A stretch of DNA of 10,091 bases from an uncultured bacterium (GTDB taxonomy: Bacteria > Pseudomonadota > Gammaproteobacteria > Burkholderiales > Burkholderiaceae_D). Of the stretch, positions 1,171-7,000 are shown one piece after another; position 1 is the first letter of the stretch, and each line of letters starts with the position of its first letter. Location: NCBI GenBank assembly GCA_903872555.1, contig CAIQLE010000281.1, positions 1-10,091 of the forward strand, in the 5' to 3' direction. The translations under genes and the position numbers were made by a program. A model generated the notes under the pieces. It had not been told where the DNA came from and searched no databases. It saw only the letters and a program-made list of their open reading frames with translations.

Positions 1171-2255
1171 GGTCTGCTGCTGGCCATGGTGTTGGCTGCG
1201 GAACCGGGTGACGCGGTGGTGCTATGGAATACATCACCGATGGTGAATTCATGCTCAGCCCGCATGACCAGCGCCAGTGAAGTCTGTTCCAGAACTTCAA
1301 AGACGAATAAGGTGGCGACTTCTTGAGACATGATTGTTGGCAGTCTGCCCGTGCTTGGCTTGAGATCAGCCATTTTAACTTGCCTCTCTACGCGCACGAC
1401 ACTGCCTGCATCCATGCCCTCTGCTGTTCCGCGGTTGAGTGCGACCACATCATGCAGGCCCGCCCAGCGACCCGCGCGCATCAGGGCAGCGACCTGACCC
1501 GTCATGCTGTTGGCCGCATGAGGTATGGCCTGCAGCCCACTATCAGTGGTCGCAGGCAGGAGCAGGTCGCCGGGCAAGATTTCACTATCAGAAGATTGAA
1601 TCCGAAAGCGATGCAGTCGTGCTCCTTCAGAGGCCTGCCAGAGCGCCCGGCCCAAACGCAAGCTGCTCAGCGCAAGTAATTTTCCTGACGCAGGATCTTT
1701 GATTTCCCGAAATGGCCGCAGCAGCTCGAATTGCCTTTGCCCTTGCAGCTCGCCCTCGACAAAGGCCACATCACCCGTGCCCGACATGCCACGGCCTTCA
1801 TCAAAGCGTATGATTTTTGGCGCTTGTTTCAGCGCAGTGATGCTGATCAGTGGCGTATGTCGGAGAAAACTGAGCAAGTGCGGTGCGATCGTCGGCAGAG
1901 CCTCAGGCCGCAGGGATTCTGCGCGCGCGCGTGGAGTGAGTTTTGTAATGTCTGAGGCTGCGACAGATATTTCAGCCGTCTTCACAAGCAACTTGCCATG
2001 TGCGCGATCAAAGACGATGGTCTGCCCCGGATAAATCCAGTGAGGGTCATGAATATGCTCACGATTGGGTTCCCACACCTGAGGCCAGCACCAGGGATTA
2101 TTCAGGAATCTGGCGGCGATATCCCATAGGGTGTCACCCTGAACCACCACATGCGCATCAGGTGCTTGTTGAAGGAATTCACAGCTTGCATGTGCCCATG
2201 GGGCACTGCTGATTGCCAGAGCGAGACAGAGGGCAGCTGTGCTACACTTTTTCAT
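1167..2255 (-). CDS. Secreted LysM peptidoglycan-binding domain protein
   Basis: 362 residues from the ATG at 2255. I chose this start because it opens a signal peptide (MKK, hydrophobic core at about 6-19, likely cleavage after AHA at 23) and has a GAG-type ribosome site a few bases upstream. The frame is open to about 2423, but those 56 codons would bury the signal peptide. A single LysM domain covers about 34-82, with the GDTLWDIA core, the PWCWPQVW segment and the IYPGQTIVF end; such domains bind peptidoglycan N-acetylglucosamine chains. The remaining 280 residues have no catalytic motif I recognise. They contain GD-x-L and a DVVALNRGTAEGMDAGSV block (269-286) of the type seen in other betaproteobacterial LysM proteins. 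It is probably a periplasmic or wall-associated protein of unknown detailed role. It overlaps dprA by 4 bp and lies divergent to def. Confidence 0.88.
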   Translation of the reverse strand: MKKCSTAALCLALAISSAPWAHASCEFLQQAPDAHVVVQGDTLWDIAARFLNNPWCWPQVWEPNREHIHDPHWIYPGQTIVFDRAHGKLLVKTAEISVAASDITKLTPRARAESLRPEALPTIAPHLLSFLRHTPLISITALKQAPKIIRFDEGRGMSGTGDVAFVEGELQGQRQFELLRPFREIKDPASGKLLALSSLRLGRALWQASEGARLHRFRIQSSDSEILPGDLLLPATTDSGLQAIPHAANSMTGQVAALMRAGRWAGLHDVVALNRGTAEGMDAGSVVRVERQVKMADLKPSTGRLPTIMSQEVATLFVFEVLEQTSLALVMRAEHEFTIGDVFHSTTASPGSAANTMASSRP

Positions 2256-2968: not shown

Positions 2969-3925
2969 ATGAAAGTCATTTTTGCCGGTACGCCTGAGTT
3001 CGCGGCCACGGCGCTGGCGGCACTCCATGGGGCGGGCTTTACGATTCCACTGGTGCTGACTCAGCCCGATCGTCCTGCGGGGCGCGGCATGCAATTGCAT
3101 CCCTCACCAGTCAAACAATTCGCCCTGCAACATCAGATACCCGTCGCCCAGCCTGTGTCACTGCGACTAGACGGTAAATTTCCTGAAGCTGCTGCCCAGG
3201 CTCATGCACTCTTACGCGATACCCCGCATGATGTGATGGTGGTGGCTGCGTATGGGCTGATACTGCCAACAACAGTGCTGCAGATACCTAGGATGGGCTG
3301 CATCAATATTCATGCCTCATTGCTGCCGCGCTGGCGCGGCGCGGCGCCTATACACCGGGCGATAGAAGCCGGAGACGCCGAGACCGGTATCACCATCATG
3401 CAAATGGATGAAGGTCTGGATACAGGCGCGATGTTATTGACTGAACACGAGTCCATCTCCCCGCAAGACACGACAGCGGCCTTGCATGATCGTCTGGCGC
3501 ACATGGGCGGGCGCATGATCGTTGAGGCTTTACGCAGTCTGGAGCAAGGCAAGTTGCAAGCAACACCACAGCCTGCCGAAGGCATCACCTACGCTGCGAA
3601 AATTAGCAAAGATGAAGCGGCGCTGGATTTTCAATTGCCGGCAAGTGTGCTTTTGCGGCGTATCCGTGCTTTTAATCCCTTCCCCGGTGCAGTCGTGCAT
3701 GCAGCTGATGTGGCATTAAAAATCTGGGATGCACAGTTGTCAGAAGCTCAGGGCAAGCCAGGTCAGGTACTGGCGATTGACCAGTCAGGCATCACCGTGG
3801 CCTGCGGCGAGGCTTCCTTGGTGCTGACCCAATTGCAAAAGCCCGGCGGCAAACGTCTGGCTGCGAATCTTTTCTTGCAGGGTTTTGCACTGGACGTAGG
3901 ACAGCAGCTCATAGGCAAGGCCTGA
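2969..3925 (+). CDS. fmt: Methionyl-tRNA formyltransferase
   Basis: 318 residues, standard length. It transfers the formyl group of 10-formyltetrahydrofolate to Met-tRNA(fMet), making the initiator tRNA whose formyl group the upstream deformylase later removes. The N-terminal Rossmann catalytic domain (about 1-205) starts with [11 protein letters not shown]. It contains QPDRPAGRG (32-40), the SLLPRWRG loop (117-124) that contacts the acceptor stem, and the GLDTG segment (149-153). Asn113, His115 and Asp151 fit the catalytic Asn-His-Asp set of the E. coli enzyme by motif. The smaller C-terminal beta-barrel tRNA-binding domain covers about 210-315. A GAGG sits very close to the ATG and overlaps the def stop region. 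rsmB, a frequent neighbour of fmt, does not follow; the metH leader does. Confidence 0.97.
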
Positions 3926-3932
3926 ATTCCCG

Positions 3933-3938
3933 TATAAT
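3933..3938 (+). promoter_or_regulatory. Candidate metH promoter (-10 TATAAT)
   Basis: A perfect TATAAT lies 8 bp after the fmt stop codon. A start 7-8 bases downstream (about 3945-3946) would put the 5' end of the transcript at the first base of the riboswitch P1 stem, which supports it. No good -35 exists at 16-18 bp spacing, where the sequence lies inside the fmt end, and there is no extended TG. Activator dependence or a weak -35 is possible. Confidence 0.6.
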
Positions 3939-3945
3939 CTTGCGT

Positions 3946-4025
3946 GCGCCGATTTGATTTTTTATAGTCAATACCAGCTTGCGGGCGCCGGAGTCCAAGT
4001 CTCCTAAAAAATACTGCTAAAGCGG
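3946..4025 (+). ncRNA. SAM-II (SAM_alpha) riboswitch, metH leader
   Basis: Recognised by motif order and pairing. P1 is GCGCC (3946-3950) with GGCGC (3984-3988). Its loop begins GATTTG (3951-3956) and ends CTTGC (3978-3982). The 3' segment GCTAAAG (4016-4022) leads into GCGG (4022-4025), which can pair with CC-A-GC (3974-3978, one bulged A) as the H-type pseudoknot; TTGC and GCTAA then line the expected ligand site. These match the conserved blocks of alphaproteobacterial metA-type SAM-II aptamers as I remember them. The P1-to-pseudoknot linker carries an extra hairpin, GGAG (3990-3993) with CTCC (4001-4004), followed by the A-rich TAAAAAATA. The class binds S-adenosylmethionine and lowers expression of methionine-synthesis genes, which fits metH downstream. 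No covariance search was possible. Confidence 0.85.
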
Positions 4026-4032
4026 CACGCAC

Positions 4033-4064
4033 ACCCGGCCTAGCTTTGCTGTCCGGGTTTTTTT
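4033..4064 (+). terminator. Intrinsic terminator in the metH leader
   Basis: A 6-bp GC-rich stem, ACCCGG (4033-4038) with CCGGGT (4053-4058), continues after a small internal loop into TAGC (4041-4044) with GCTG (4048-4051) and a TTT loop. Seven T's (4058-4064) follow directly. It lies between the SAM-II aptamer and the metH ATG at 4086, so it probably serves as the expression platform; it would also end fmt transcripts. The upstream segment GCCGG-A-GT (3987-3994) can pair with 4033-4039 to prevent it forming. Confidence 0.85.
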
Positions 4065-4085
4065 ATTTCTTCGACTGCTAATCCG

Positions 4086-7000
4086 ATGAAACGCGATCTT
4101 CCTTCTCCCGTTGAAACACAACTGCGCAGCTTGCTGGCCAAACGTATCCTGATTCTTGACGGAGCGATGGGCACCATGATCCAGCGCTACAAACTGACGG
4201 AAGAAGATTATCGCGGCCAGCGTTTCGCCGACTTTTCTGTGCCGGGCAAGGACGTCTTCGTCAAGGGCAATAATGAATTACTGACGCTGACCCAGCCACA
4301 CATCATTCAGGAAATTCACGAACAGTATCTGGCAGCCGGCGCCGATCTGATCGAGACCAATACCTTTGGCGCGACCACGATCGCTCAGGACGACTATCAC
4401 ATGGCGCATCTGGCGCGTGAAATGAATCTTGAAGCCGCCAGAATCGCACGTGCCGCCTGCGACAAGTATTCAACACCCGACAAGCCACGCTATGTTGCCG
4501 GCGCGCTTGGCCCCACACCCAAGACCGCATCTATTTCACCGGATGTGAATGATCCTGGTGCGCGCAATGTGAGTTTCGATCAGCTCGTTGCGGCCTACTA
4601 TGAGCAGACCATGGCGCTGGTTGAAGGCGGTGCCGATGTGCTACTGGTTGAAACCGTATTCGATACGCTTAATTGCAAGGCCGCTCTGTTTGCGGTCGAT
4701 AAATTTTTTGAAGATTCAGGCAAGCGACTGCCCATCATGATTTCAGGCACGGTGACGGATGCCTCTGGTCGCATCTTGTCTGGTCAGACTGTCACAGCGT
4801 TCTGGAATTCGGTGCGTCATGCACGCCCCCTGACCATCGGTCTGAACTGCGCTTTAGGGGCTACCCTGATGCGCCCGTATGCCGAAGAGTTATCCAAGAT
4901 TGCAGAGACCTTTGTCTGCATCTATCCGAATGCTGGTCTGCCCAACCCCATGTCTGACACAGGCTTTGATGAAACGCCGGATGTCACTTCGTCTCTGCTG
5001 AAAGATTTTGCAGAAAGCGGTTTCGTCAATATCGCCGGCGGCTGCTGTGGTACCACACCCGAGCACATCAAAGCGATCGCCGGCACGGTGAGCAAAGTTG
5101 CGCCACGCAAGATACCCACCCATCTGCATCAGATGCAGCTGTCCGGTCTGGAGCCTTTTGTCATTGATGAAGATTCGCTATTCGTGAATGTGGGCGAGCG
5201 TACTAACGTGACGGGATCAAAAGCCTTTGCGCGCATGATCCTGAATGAGCAGTATGAAGAAGCGCTGGCTGTAGCACGCCAGCAGGTGGAAAACGGTGCG
5301 CAGGTCATCGATATCAATATGGATGAGGCGATGTTGGATTCGGTGGCAGCGATGACGCGCTTCCGGAATCTGATTGCCTCAGAGCCCGATATTGCGCGCG
5401 TGCCTATCATGATCGATTCATCAAAATGGTCAGTGATCGAGGCGGGCTTAAAGTGCGTGCAGGGCAAGGCGATCGTTAATTCGATTTCACTCAAAGAAGG
5501 CGAACCAGAATTTTTACGTCAGGCCAATCTCTGCCGACGCTATGGCGCCGCCGTGATCGTGATGGCGTTTGATGAAAGTGGTCAGGCTGACACTTATGCC
5601 CGCAAGACTGAAATCTGTACACGTGCCTACAAACTGCTGGTCGAGACGATAGGCTTCCCACCAGAAGATATTATTTTCGATCCGAATATTTTTGCCGTCG
5701 CTACCGGTATCGAAGAGCACAATAATTACGCCGTTGATTTCATCGAAGCCACACGCTGGATACGTGAAAATCTGCCGCATGCCAAAGTCAGTGGCGGTGT
5801 CTCGAATGTGAGTTTTTCTTTCCGTGGCAATGATCCTGCGCGCGAAGCTATACATACGGTGTTTTTATATCACGCGATCAAAGCGGGTATGAGCATGGGC
5901 ATCGTCAACGCAGGCATGGTGGGCGTGTATGACGACCTCGATCCTGAATTGCGTGAGCGTGCCGAAGACGTGGTACTGAACCGTCGTGATGATGCAACTG
6001 AGCGCATGATTGAACTGGCCGCGACCCTGAAGGCCGGCGATAAAAAAGAAGAACAAAATCTGGTCTGGCGTGATCAGCCGGTTCAAAAGCGGCTGGCGCA
6101 TGCACTGGTACATGGCATCACGCAGTGGATAGTCGAAGACACCGAAGAGGCGCGCGCGCAAGTCGCAGACAGCGGTGGCCGCCCTATCCATGTGATCGAA
6201 GGTCCGCTGATGGATGGCATGAACATCGTTGGTGATCTTTTCGGTCAGGGCAAAATGTTTTTGCCTCAGGTCGTGAAATCAGCGCGCGTGATGAAACAGG
6301 CGGTAGCGCATCTGGTGCCCTTCATCGAAGAAGAAAAAGCCGAAGAAGAACGTCGCACGGGCCAGGCCTCCAAGCCCAAGGGCAAGATCGTGATTGCAAC
6401 CGTCAAGGGCGATGTGCATGACATAGGCAAGAACATTGTCTCTGTGGTTTTGCAGTGTAATAACTTTGAAGTCGTCAATATGGGCGTGATGGTGCCTGCG
6501 GCTGAAATTCTGGCTAAGGCCAAGGAAGAAAATGCAGACATCATCGGACTCTCAGGATTGATTACACCTTCGCTGGAAGAAATGGCGCATGTGGCCAAAG
6601 AAATGCAGCGTGACCCCCATTTCCGTGCTTTGAAAACGCCGCTTCTGATTGGCGGCGCCACCACCAGTCGTGCACATACGGCGGTCAAGATTGCGCCTAA
6701 CTATGAAGGCCCAGTGGTGTATGTGGCTGATGCTTCGCGTTCTGTATCGGTGGCGCAGTCGTTGCTGACACCTGAATCACGCGAGCAATATATCGCTGAC
6801 ATTGCCACTGACTATGAGCGCATAAGAGTTCAGCATGCAGGTAAGAAAGCGCTGCCACTGCTCAGCCTTGAGGCGGCACGCAAGAACAAGATGGCCTTGT
6901 CTTTCGAAGGTAAGTTCGCGCCGCACAAACCGAAATTCATAGGTCGCCGCCATTTCCGTAATCTGGATCTGGCGATACTGGCCAACTACATAGACTGGGG

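Follow-up and report, generated by a model that had tools for sequence, protein, structure and literature searches.

A probable SAM-II class riboswitch with two inserted hairpins ahead of metH in a betaproteobacterium

Which RNA occupies the gap between fmt and metH in this bacterium, and what does it do to methionine synthesis? The window, that is, the whole 10,091-nucleotide stretch of DNA that was analyzed, carries in order dprA (-), a gene for a LysM protein (-; the label is our own reading of the sequence), def, fmt and metH, with 160 nt separating the last two. The original prediction placed a SAM-II riboswitch in this gap, ahead of a full-length metH in what looked like a betaproteobacterium. 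Both the target and the host hold up: the encoded protein scores above the TIGR02082 cut-off (Table 1), and the nearest named metH loci come from Oxalobacteraceae MAGs, one MAG titled Polynucleobacter, Herminiimonas and Noviherbaspirillum. The Polynucleobacter sp. title (L117, a member of the window's genus) looks wrong beside the Oxalobacteraceae MAGs. In our judgment, it is highly probable that the gap encodes a riboswitch of the SAM-II class that controls metH through premature transcription termination. The evidence supports reading this RNA as an expanded structural variant of SAM-II, a known class carrying two extra hairpins.

The gap opens with a TATAAT box, continues with the aptamer blocks and ends in a CCCGG...CCGGG hairpin with seven T. 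By eye, the TATAAT box was found at the identical place in 20 of 20 leaders (L001-L020). No convincing -35 box was seen for this putative leader promoter, and a consensus scan of positions 3800-4150 returned neither a promoter nor a terminator, although the 8-nt loop limit of that scan would miss the terminator at 4034-4064. From 5ʹ to 3ʹ, the blocks run GCGCC-GATTTG-(insert 1)-CCAGCTTGC-GGGCGC-(insert 2)-AAATACT-GCTAAAGCGG, with insert 1 placed between L1 and the 5ʹ strand of P2 and insert 2 between P1 and L3. The predicted series of P1, GATTTG, CTTGC, GCTAAAG and pseudoknot GG was found in order within 3946-4025, each block at its assigned place: GATTTG at 3951-3956, CTTGC at 3978-3982, GCTAAAG at 4016-4022 and, at 3974-3975, a CC able to pair with the GG at 4024-4025.

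According to the accessible text of PMC3764141, the SAM-II pocket is built from G8 and U10-U12 in L1 and from U20, U21, G22, C23 and G42-A47 in P2b. The residues described there are complete in the window (3951-3955, 3979-3982 and 4016-4021), and the pairs of the P1 hairpin and the P2 pseudoknot both exist. The element thus shares with SAM-II (RF00521, SAM_alpha) the H-type pseudoknot, all pocket residues and a place upstream of methionine-pathway genes, here metH and, after the second copy in the genome, metX; a transcription terminator is also found in some described SAM-II members. It differs from SAM-II in its P1 (GCGCC/GGCGC instead of GUGG(U/C)/GCCAC), in the two inserted hairpins, in the lack of an RF00521 match in the window and in having metH as its target. 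When folded with the pseudoknot left out, the leader is not more stable than shuffled sequences (z -0.65; 39 of 200 shuffles were equally good), and P1 reaches a probability of merely 0.06-0.27 in the window. An outer helix (GCGUGC/GCACGC) that appeared in the predicted fold was dropped, being absent from the relatives compared by eye.

Table 1. Features of the metH leader and its target gene in the window
Feature	Position	Strand	Basis
TATAAT, putative -10 box of the leader promoter, directly past the fmt stop codon	3933..3938	+	sequence
P1 5ʹ strand, GCGCC	3946..3950	+	pairs with 3984-3988
L1, GATTTG, corresponding to G8 and U10-U12 of the SAM-II pocket (2QWY numbering)	3951..3956	+	residue roles as given in the accessible text of PMC3764141
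Insert 1, possible hairpin UUGA(Y)...(R)UCAA overlapping the L1 uridines	3954..3971	+	flanking-base counts, UCAA conservation
P2 5ʹ strand, CC-A-GC-UUGC (U20, U21, G22 and C23 of the pocket)	3974..3982	+	pairs with 4016-4025
P1 3ʹ strand, GGCGC	3984..3988	+	pairs with 3946-3950
Insert 2, variable hairpin at the start of L3, GGAG 3990-3993 / CTCC 4001-4004	3989..4008	+	folding z
L3, AAATACT, A-minor strand along P1	4009..4015	+	conservation in A3 and A4
GCTAAA-GCGG, pocket G42-A47 and P2 3ʹ strand	4016..4025	+	GCTAAA in 20/20 leaders L001-L020
Intrinsic terminator, CCCGG...CCGGG then 7 T	4034..4064	+	terminator in 114/123 distinct elements
metH, full-length B12-dependent methionine synthase, 1251 aa	4086..7841	+	TIGR02082 1706.7 bits, cut-off 1010.85

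The search with the Rfam model RF00521 that the original prediction had proposed as a check gave no credible match in the window. An Rfam scan of the full window returned nothing at E values up to 1, RF00521 included, and a scan of 3900-4110 at E values up to 10 returned merely two matches of 12-14 bits to other families (atoC and anti-hemB), which were taken as chance. The miss is apparently due to the two inserted hairpins; it concerns a database threshold, not a structural feature, and the inserts are probably its cause. Independent support for the class comes from a model, R2, made from 31 metX/metZ leaders (alignment A3) with zero metH leaders and zero sequences from the window's genus. 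It was built because an earlier model, R1, includes the window and some of its kin and is circular when scored on them. R2 scored 51.6 bits on the window (E 2.2e-14, filters off), and the second of the 15 matches listed scored 7.3 bits. With the pocket residues all in order, this match supports the predicted SAM-II class. Across 56 sources, R2 matched all 34 metH leaders. It also matched each of 22 alphaproteobacterial SAM-II leaders (22 of the 30 loci fetched) with scores of 13.9-42.2 bits, the match being weak for two of them (E 0.014 and 0.057), so that a single independent profile finds both the window and bona fide SAM-II.

RF00521 itself recognizes some members of the group. Its gathering cut-off of 36 bits was passed by four of seven metH leaders scanned (L193, 46.2 bits; L162, 43.3; L167, 40.3; L173, 36.2) and narrowly missed by the other three (L152, 35.8; L033, 32.2; L034, 32.0); the two inserts set the window and its genus apart from these leaders. 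Across 56 genomes, two RF00521 matches lay above the cut-off (45.2 and 38.4 bits), and further matches at E near 1 were discarded as noise, since 8 of 14 control genomes gave them as well. Many betaproteobacterial SAM-II elements have thus been overlooked by RF00521. The L193 match, at 1329-1402 (+), is a SAM-II of alphaproteobacterial type before metH in a MAG titled Gemmatimonadales.

A betaproteobacterial element with similar properties has been described before. The metXZ element of Leyn 2014 (PMC4239095) is presented in the accessible text of that paper as a pseudoknot built from six conserved regions, accompanied by a terminator and with no known ligand, occurring once per genome before metX (metXW) or metZ. 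The present element shares with it an architecture of conserved blocks in a pseudoknot, the terminator behind them, metX or metZ downstream, betaproteobacterial hosts and an origin in comparative genomics; the difference is that the available portion of Leyn 2014 gives metXZ neither a ligand nor a link to SAM-II. Copies of the element do precede metX and metZ of betaproteobacteria and carry a terminator, the window copy itself preceding metH. The two are very likely the same, a match made on the text description in the accessible part of Leyn 2014 rather than on the sequences in its figures. The orphan metXZ element thereby gains a probable ligand. It might be argued conversely that the element is the metXZ attenuator and no relative of SAM-II, with something else driving the terminator: Leyn 2014, in the text available, called metXZ new and confined SAM_alpha to Rhizobiales and Rhodobacterales. 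We regard this as extremely improbable, because RF00521 scores members above its cut-off (the two matches among the 56 genomes and the four metH leaders) and because R2 finds alphaproteobacterial SAM-II. RF02424 (Bp2_287), filed as an sRNA and not as a riboswitch, stems from a Burkholderia sRNA screen whose authors, in the accessible text of PMC3521395, proposed a cis-acting role in methionine metabolism. Its matches coincide with three metZ leaders of the element (L058 1460-1632, -, 203.9 bits; L059 1465-1667, -, 107.5 bits; L060 1412-1588, +, 157.2 bits), each on the strand opposite metZ. RF02424 therefore seems built on the strand complementary to a SAM-II leader, and its orientation in Rfam is likely to be wrong. 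SAM-V has a SAM-II-like pocket with other helix lengths, according to the part of PMC2704228 available, and gave no Rfam match in the window. Nor did the SAH riboswitch (RF01057), a separate family that also precedes metH in some betaproteobacteria.

Covariation across elements shows the structure, and sequence, conservation, target and terminator are observed. The motif blocks were present in 20 of 20 leaders (L001-L020) fetched through DNA similarity alone; in alignments A2-A4, where these motifs served to find or cut out many of the rows, the invariance of the blocks is in part built in. The AAAT of L3 and the C that follows it are conserved at 90% or more in the 31 metX/metZ leaders (A3) and invariant in 42 metH leaders (A4). 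P1 was absent from the search pattern, and the counts for P1 and P2 were made without a pre-filter on P1 pairing. All five inner P1 pairs occur in 155 of 163 distinct raw pattern matches, and the other eight look false or mis-parsed. Among the 155, the helix is GCGCC/GGCGC in 128, GUGGU/GCCAC in 15, GUGGC/GCCAC in 7 and GCGUC/GACGC in 3, with two others; the GUGG types are alphaproteobacterial, so that the bases of P1 differ between alpha- and betaproteobacteria and the pairing is kept. In P2, the pair between loop position -5 and tail position +4 is C-G in 54, T-A in 29 and T-G in 15 of 133 betaproteobacterial elements, and 0 of 500 shuffles did as well; among 22 alphaproteobacterial elements, the same pair was no better than shuffling (67 of 500). 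Within A3, 91.9% of P1 cells are paired, a level reached by 99 of 500 shuffles. Changes on both sides occur in three of the six P1 pairs (0 of 500 shuffles), two of which rest on one sequence each, and only one of the five shuffle measures on A3 was clearly exceeded. Covariation was accordingly seen in P1 across groups and in the P2 pair -5/+4 within betaproteobacteria. Inside the genus, P1 is invariant and therefore carries no covariation information.

The original prediction had also called metH an unusual target for SAM-II. This is so when measured against the literature on Alphaproteobacteria, but not within the family, where the context is common. A DNA search with the leader found it in 25 of 56 relatives, including 19 of 21 genomes of the genus (the window's own counted), and in all 19 it stands before metH. 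A pattern of the three core blocks occurred in 165 of 300 genomes of the order, and the reversed control pattern was absent in every genome listed. R1 matched 115 of 145 family genomes, and MetH is encoded in 142 of the same 145. Sixty metH leaders were then taken from the family, 45 with an adjoining R1 match (places compared by eye) and 15 with none listed; 53 of the 60 contain the element by motif or R2, and the 7 that lack it gave no SAH or cobalamin switch with Rfam. Together with five members of the genus and G021, G022 and G029, the 53 put the element before metH in at least 61 of 145 family genomes, which is a lower bound, and in at least 24 of 44 genera. Among 80 named loci, an R1 match lies right upstream of metH in 14, including Noviherbaspirillum pedocola, Undibacterium terreum, a Herminiimonas MAG, Accumulibacter and Methyloversatilis; three of the 14 belong to the window's genus (L117, L118 and L128) and three are also in the family sample (L119, L134 and L152). 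The targets of the element are hence metX and metZ, which it precedes in many Burkholderiales, and metH, a regular target in the family and one that can now be added to those of SAM-II. An earlier mention of SAM-II in betaproteobacteria dates from 2009 (PMC2704228, as far as its accessible text goes), and 44 tandem SAM-II examples are reported in the available part of PMC9481103; neither is claimed here as new. Searches of the open-licence literature turned up neither a SAM-II element ahead of metH in this family nor a connection between metXZ and SAM-II.

We infer from the conserved pocket and the target genes that the ligand would be SAM, and the element probably senses it and turns off the methionine-making metH. 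The same fold might instead bind another ligand of the cycle, such as SAH, methionine or a form of cobalamin, since MetH uses B12 and homocysteine. That metH can follow SAH is seen in betaproteobacteria, where 2 of 15 named loci scanned with Rfam (L161 and L145) have an SAH riboswitch at the same place. However, the window's genome carries a separate, ordinary SAH riboswitch before ahcY (L287, G000:C22:10354-10428, -, 56.7 bits), and SAH sensing is therefore already served elsewhere in that genome. Sister copies of the element precede metX and metZ, which to our knowledge are not SAH targets. Moreover, the SAM-contacting residues listed in the accessible text of PMC3764141 are all kept, including U11 and U21, which recognize the charged sulfur. 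Another ligand is thus very improbable, and SAM remains the preferred one. According to the text of Leyn 2014 (PMC4239095) available, metH of Comamonadaceae is under an SAH riboswitch. With metH behind SAM-II in some relatives and behind an SAH riboswitch in others, the replacement of one switch by another at a single locus becomes directly testable.

In the mechanism that we propose, the RNA would begin right after the TATAAT box at the end of fmt. SAM would bind the H-type pseudoknot of P1 and P2 and lock the 3ʹ strand of P1 and the GCUAAAGCGG strand; the terminator at 4034-4064 would then form and metH would be off. Without SAM, the freed strands would capture the 5ʹ half of the terminator hairpin by base pairing, and transcription would continue into metH. 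The result would be product feedback, in which MetH makes methionine, methionine yields SAM and SAM stops metH. The OFF direction is suggested by the SAM-II precedent in the accessible text of PMC9373788 and by the nature of the target gene.

Of 123 distinct elements, 114 have a terminator downstream, and in 111 of these its 5ʹ arm includes CCCG. The motif was present in 25 of 156 terminator-like hairpins taken for comparison from other places in the 80 named loci and the window. This contrast is indicative only, because the comparison hairpins were selected with a longer T run and under an energy limit, and close relatives are among the elements. This CCCG can pair with the CGGG adjoining P1. 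Over 121 elements, pairing of the terminator 5ʹ halves exceeded that of their shuffled versions both for GCUAAA+4 (mean z -1.06) and for the P1 3ʹ strand (mean z -0.97), and no excess was seen for L1 (0.05). This bias fits a switch whose aptamer strands keep the terminator from closing up to the point at which SAM engages them. Folding the window without pseudoknots points the other way, with an antiterminator on the P1 strand at 0.01 or less and the terminator at 1.00. An antiterminator formed through the P1 3ʹ strand may exist, with the sequence bias of the terminator for it and the fold against it.

That the terminator stands at 1.00 in this fold without ligand also speaks for control at translation or mRNA stability instead of termination, and the SAM-II of S. 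meliloti, in the available text of PMC9373788, acts partly at both levels. Against this, a terminator follows nearly every distinct element, and metH starts 60 nt past the aptamer in the window, so that P2 cannot directly cover its ribosome site. We therefore consider such control improbable and retain premature termination as the mechanism.

Both inserts sit where the chain turns, and, judged on the published fold, the pocket could therefore stay intact. Insert 2 is a hairpin of variable sequence. The 54 distinct inserts of 15-65 nt from metH leaders vary widely, yet they have a mean folding z of -2.60 (-2.4 in the window); 98% lie below the mean of their own mononucleotide shuffles, and 72% have at least four pairs. 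In one metH leader (L281 119-343, -), the second insert exceeds 100 nt by a wide margin and the core blocks are intact.

Insert 1 was parsed in metH leaders from 66 of 72 loci. It is present in 53, with the flanking bases U-G in 40, C-G in 8 and U-A in 4, plus one parsing artefact; it is missing from 12, and one more leader is mis-parsed. Two loci that start at an inner GATTTG (L230 and L235) account for the single A-G row and one row classed as other. No C-A flank occurs, but chance alone would give 0.6; the absence is therefore uninformative, or weak as covariation, and the case for a hairpin comes mainly from the conservation of its UCAA. Each column of the UCAA is conserved at 90% or more in the 42 rows of A4, and the motif was not seen among the metX/metZ rows of A3. 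The second genomic copy, before metX, likewise has insert 2 and lacks insert 1. Since UCAA is able to pair with two of the L1 uridines of the pocket, a hairpin in insert 1 would compete with SAM. It is conceivable, though we rate it as rather unlikely, that the family's metH leaders form a gated SAM-II subclass in which the UUGA/UCAA hairpin of insert 1 must open before SAM binds. If so, the gate would make metH respond at a higher SAM level, or more slowly, than the metX copy of the same genome, which has no insert 1.

Several genomes carry more than one copy of the element. In the window's own genome, a third R2 match was counted besides the metH and metX copies, and one genome of the class (G921) has 10 R2 matches over several contigs. 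Two further copies lie about 1 kb apart on one strand in L050 (479-563 and 1506-1589, +). Tandem SAM-II-like pairs were seen in L036 (1500-1680, +), L028 (1506-1758, +), L037 (1506-1724, +) and L057 (1370-1554, -). In these pairs, the first element has a terminator and the second lies closer to the start codon, the second of L037 being weak (16.1 bits). A metZ-like start follows the L036 pair, and the pairs in L028, L037 and L057 precede small proteins with no Pfam match.
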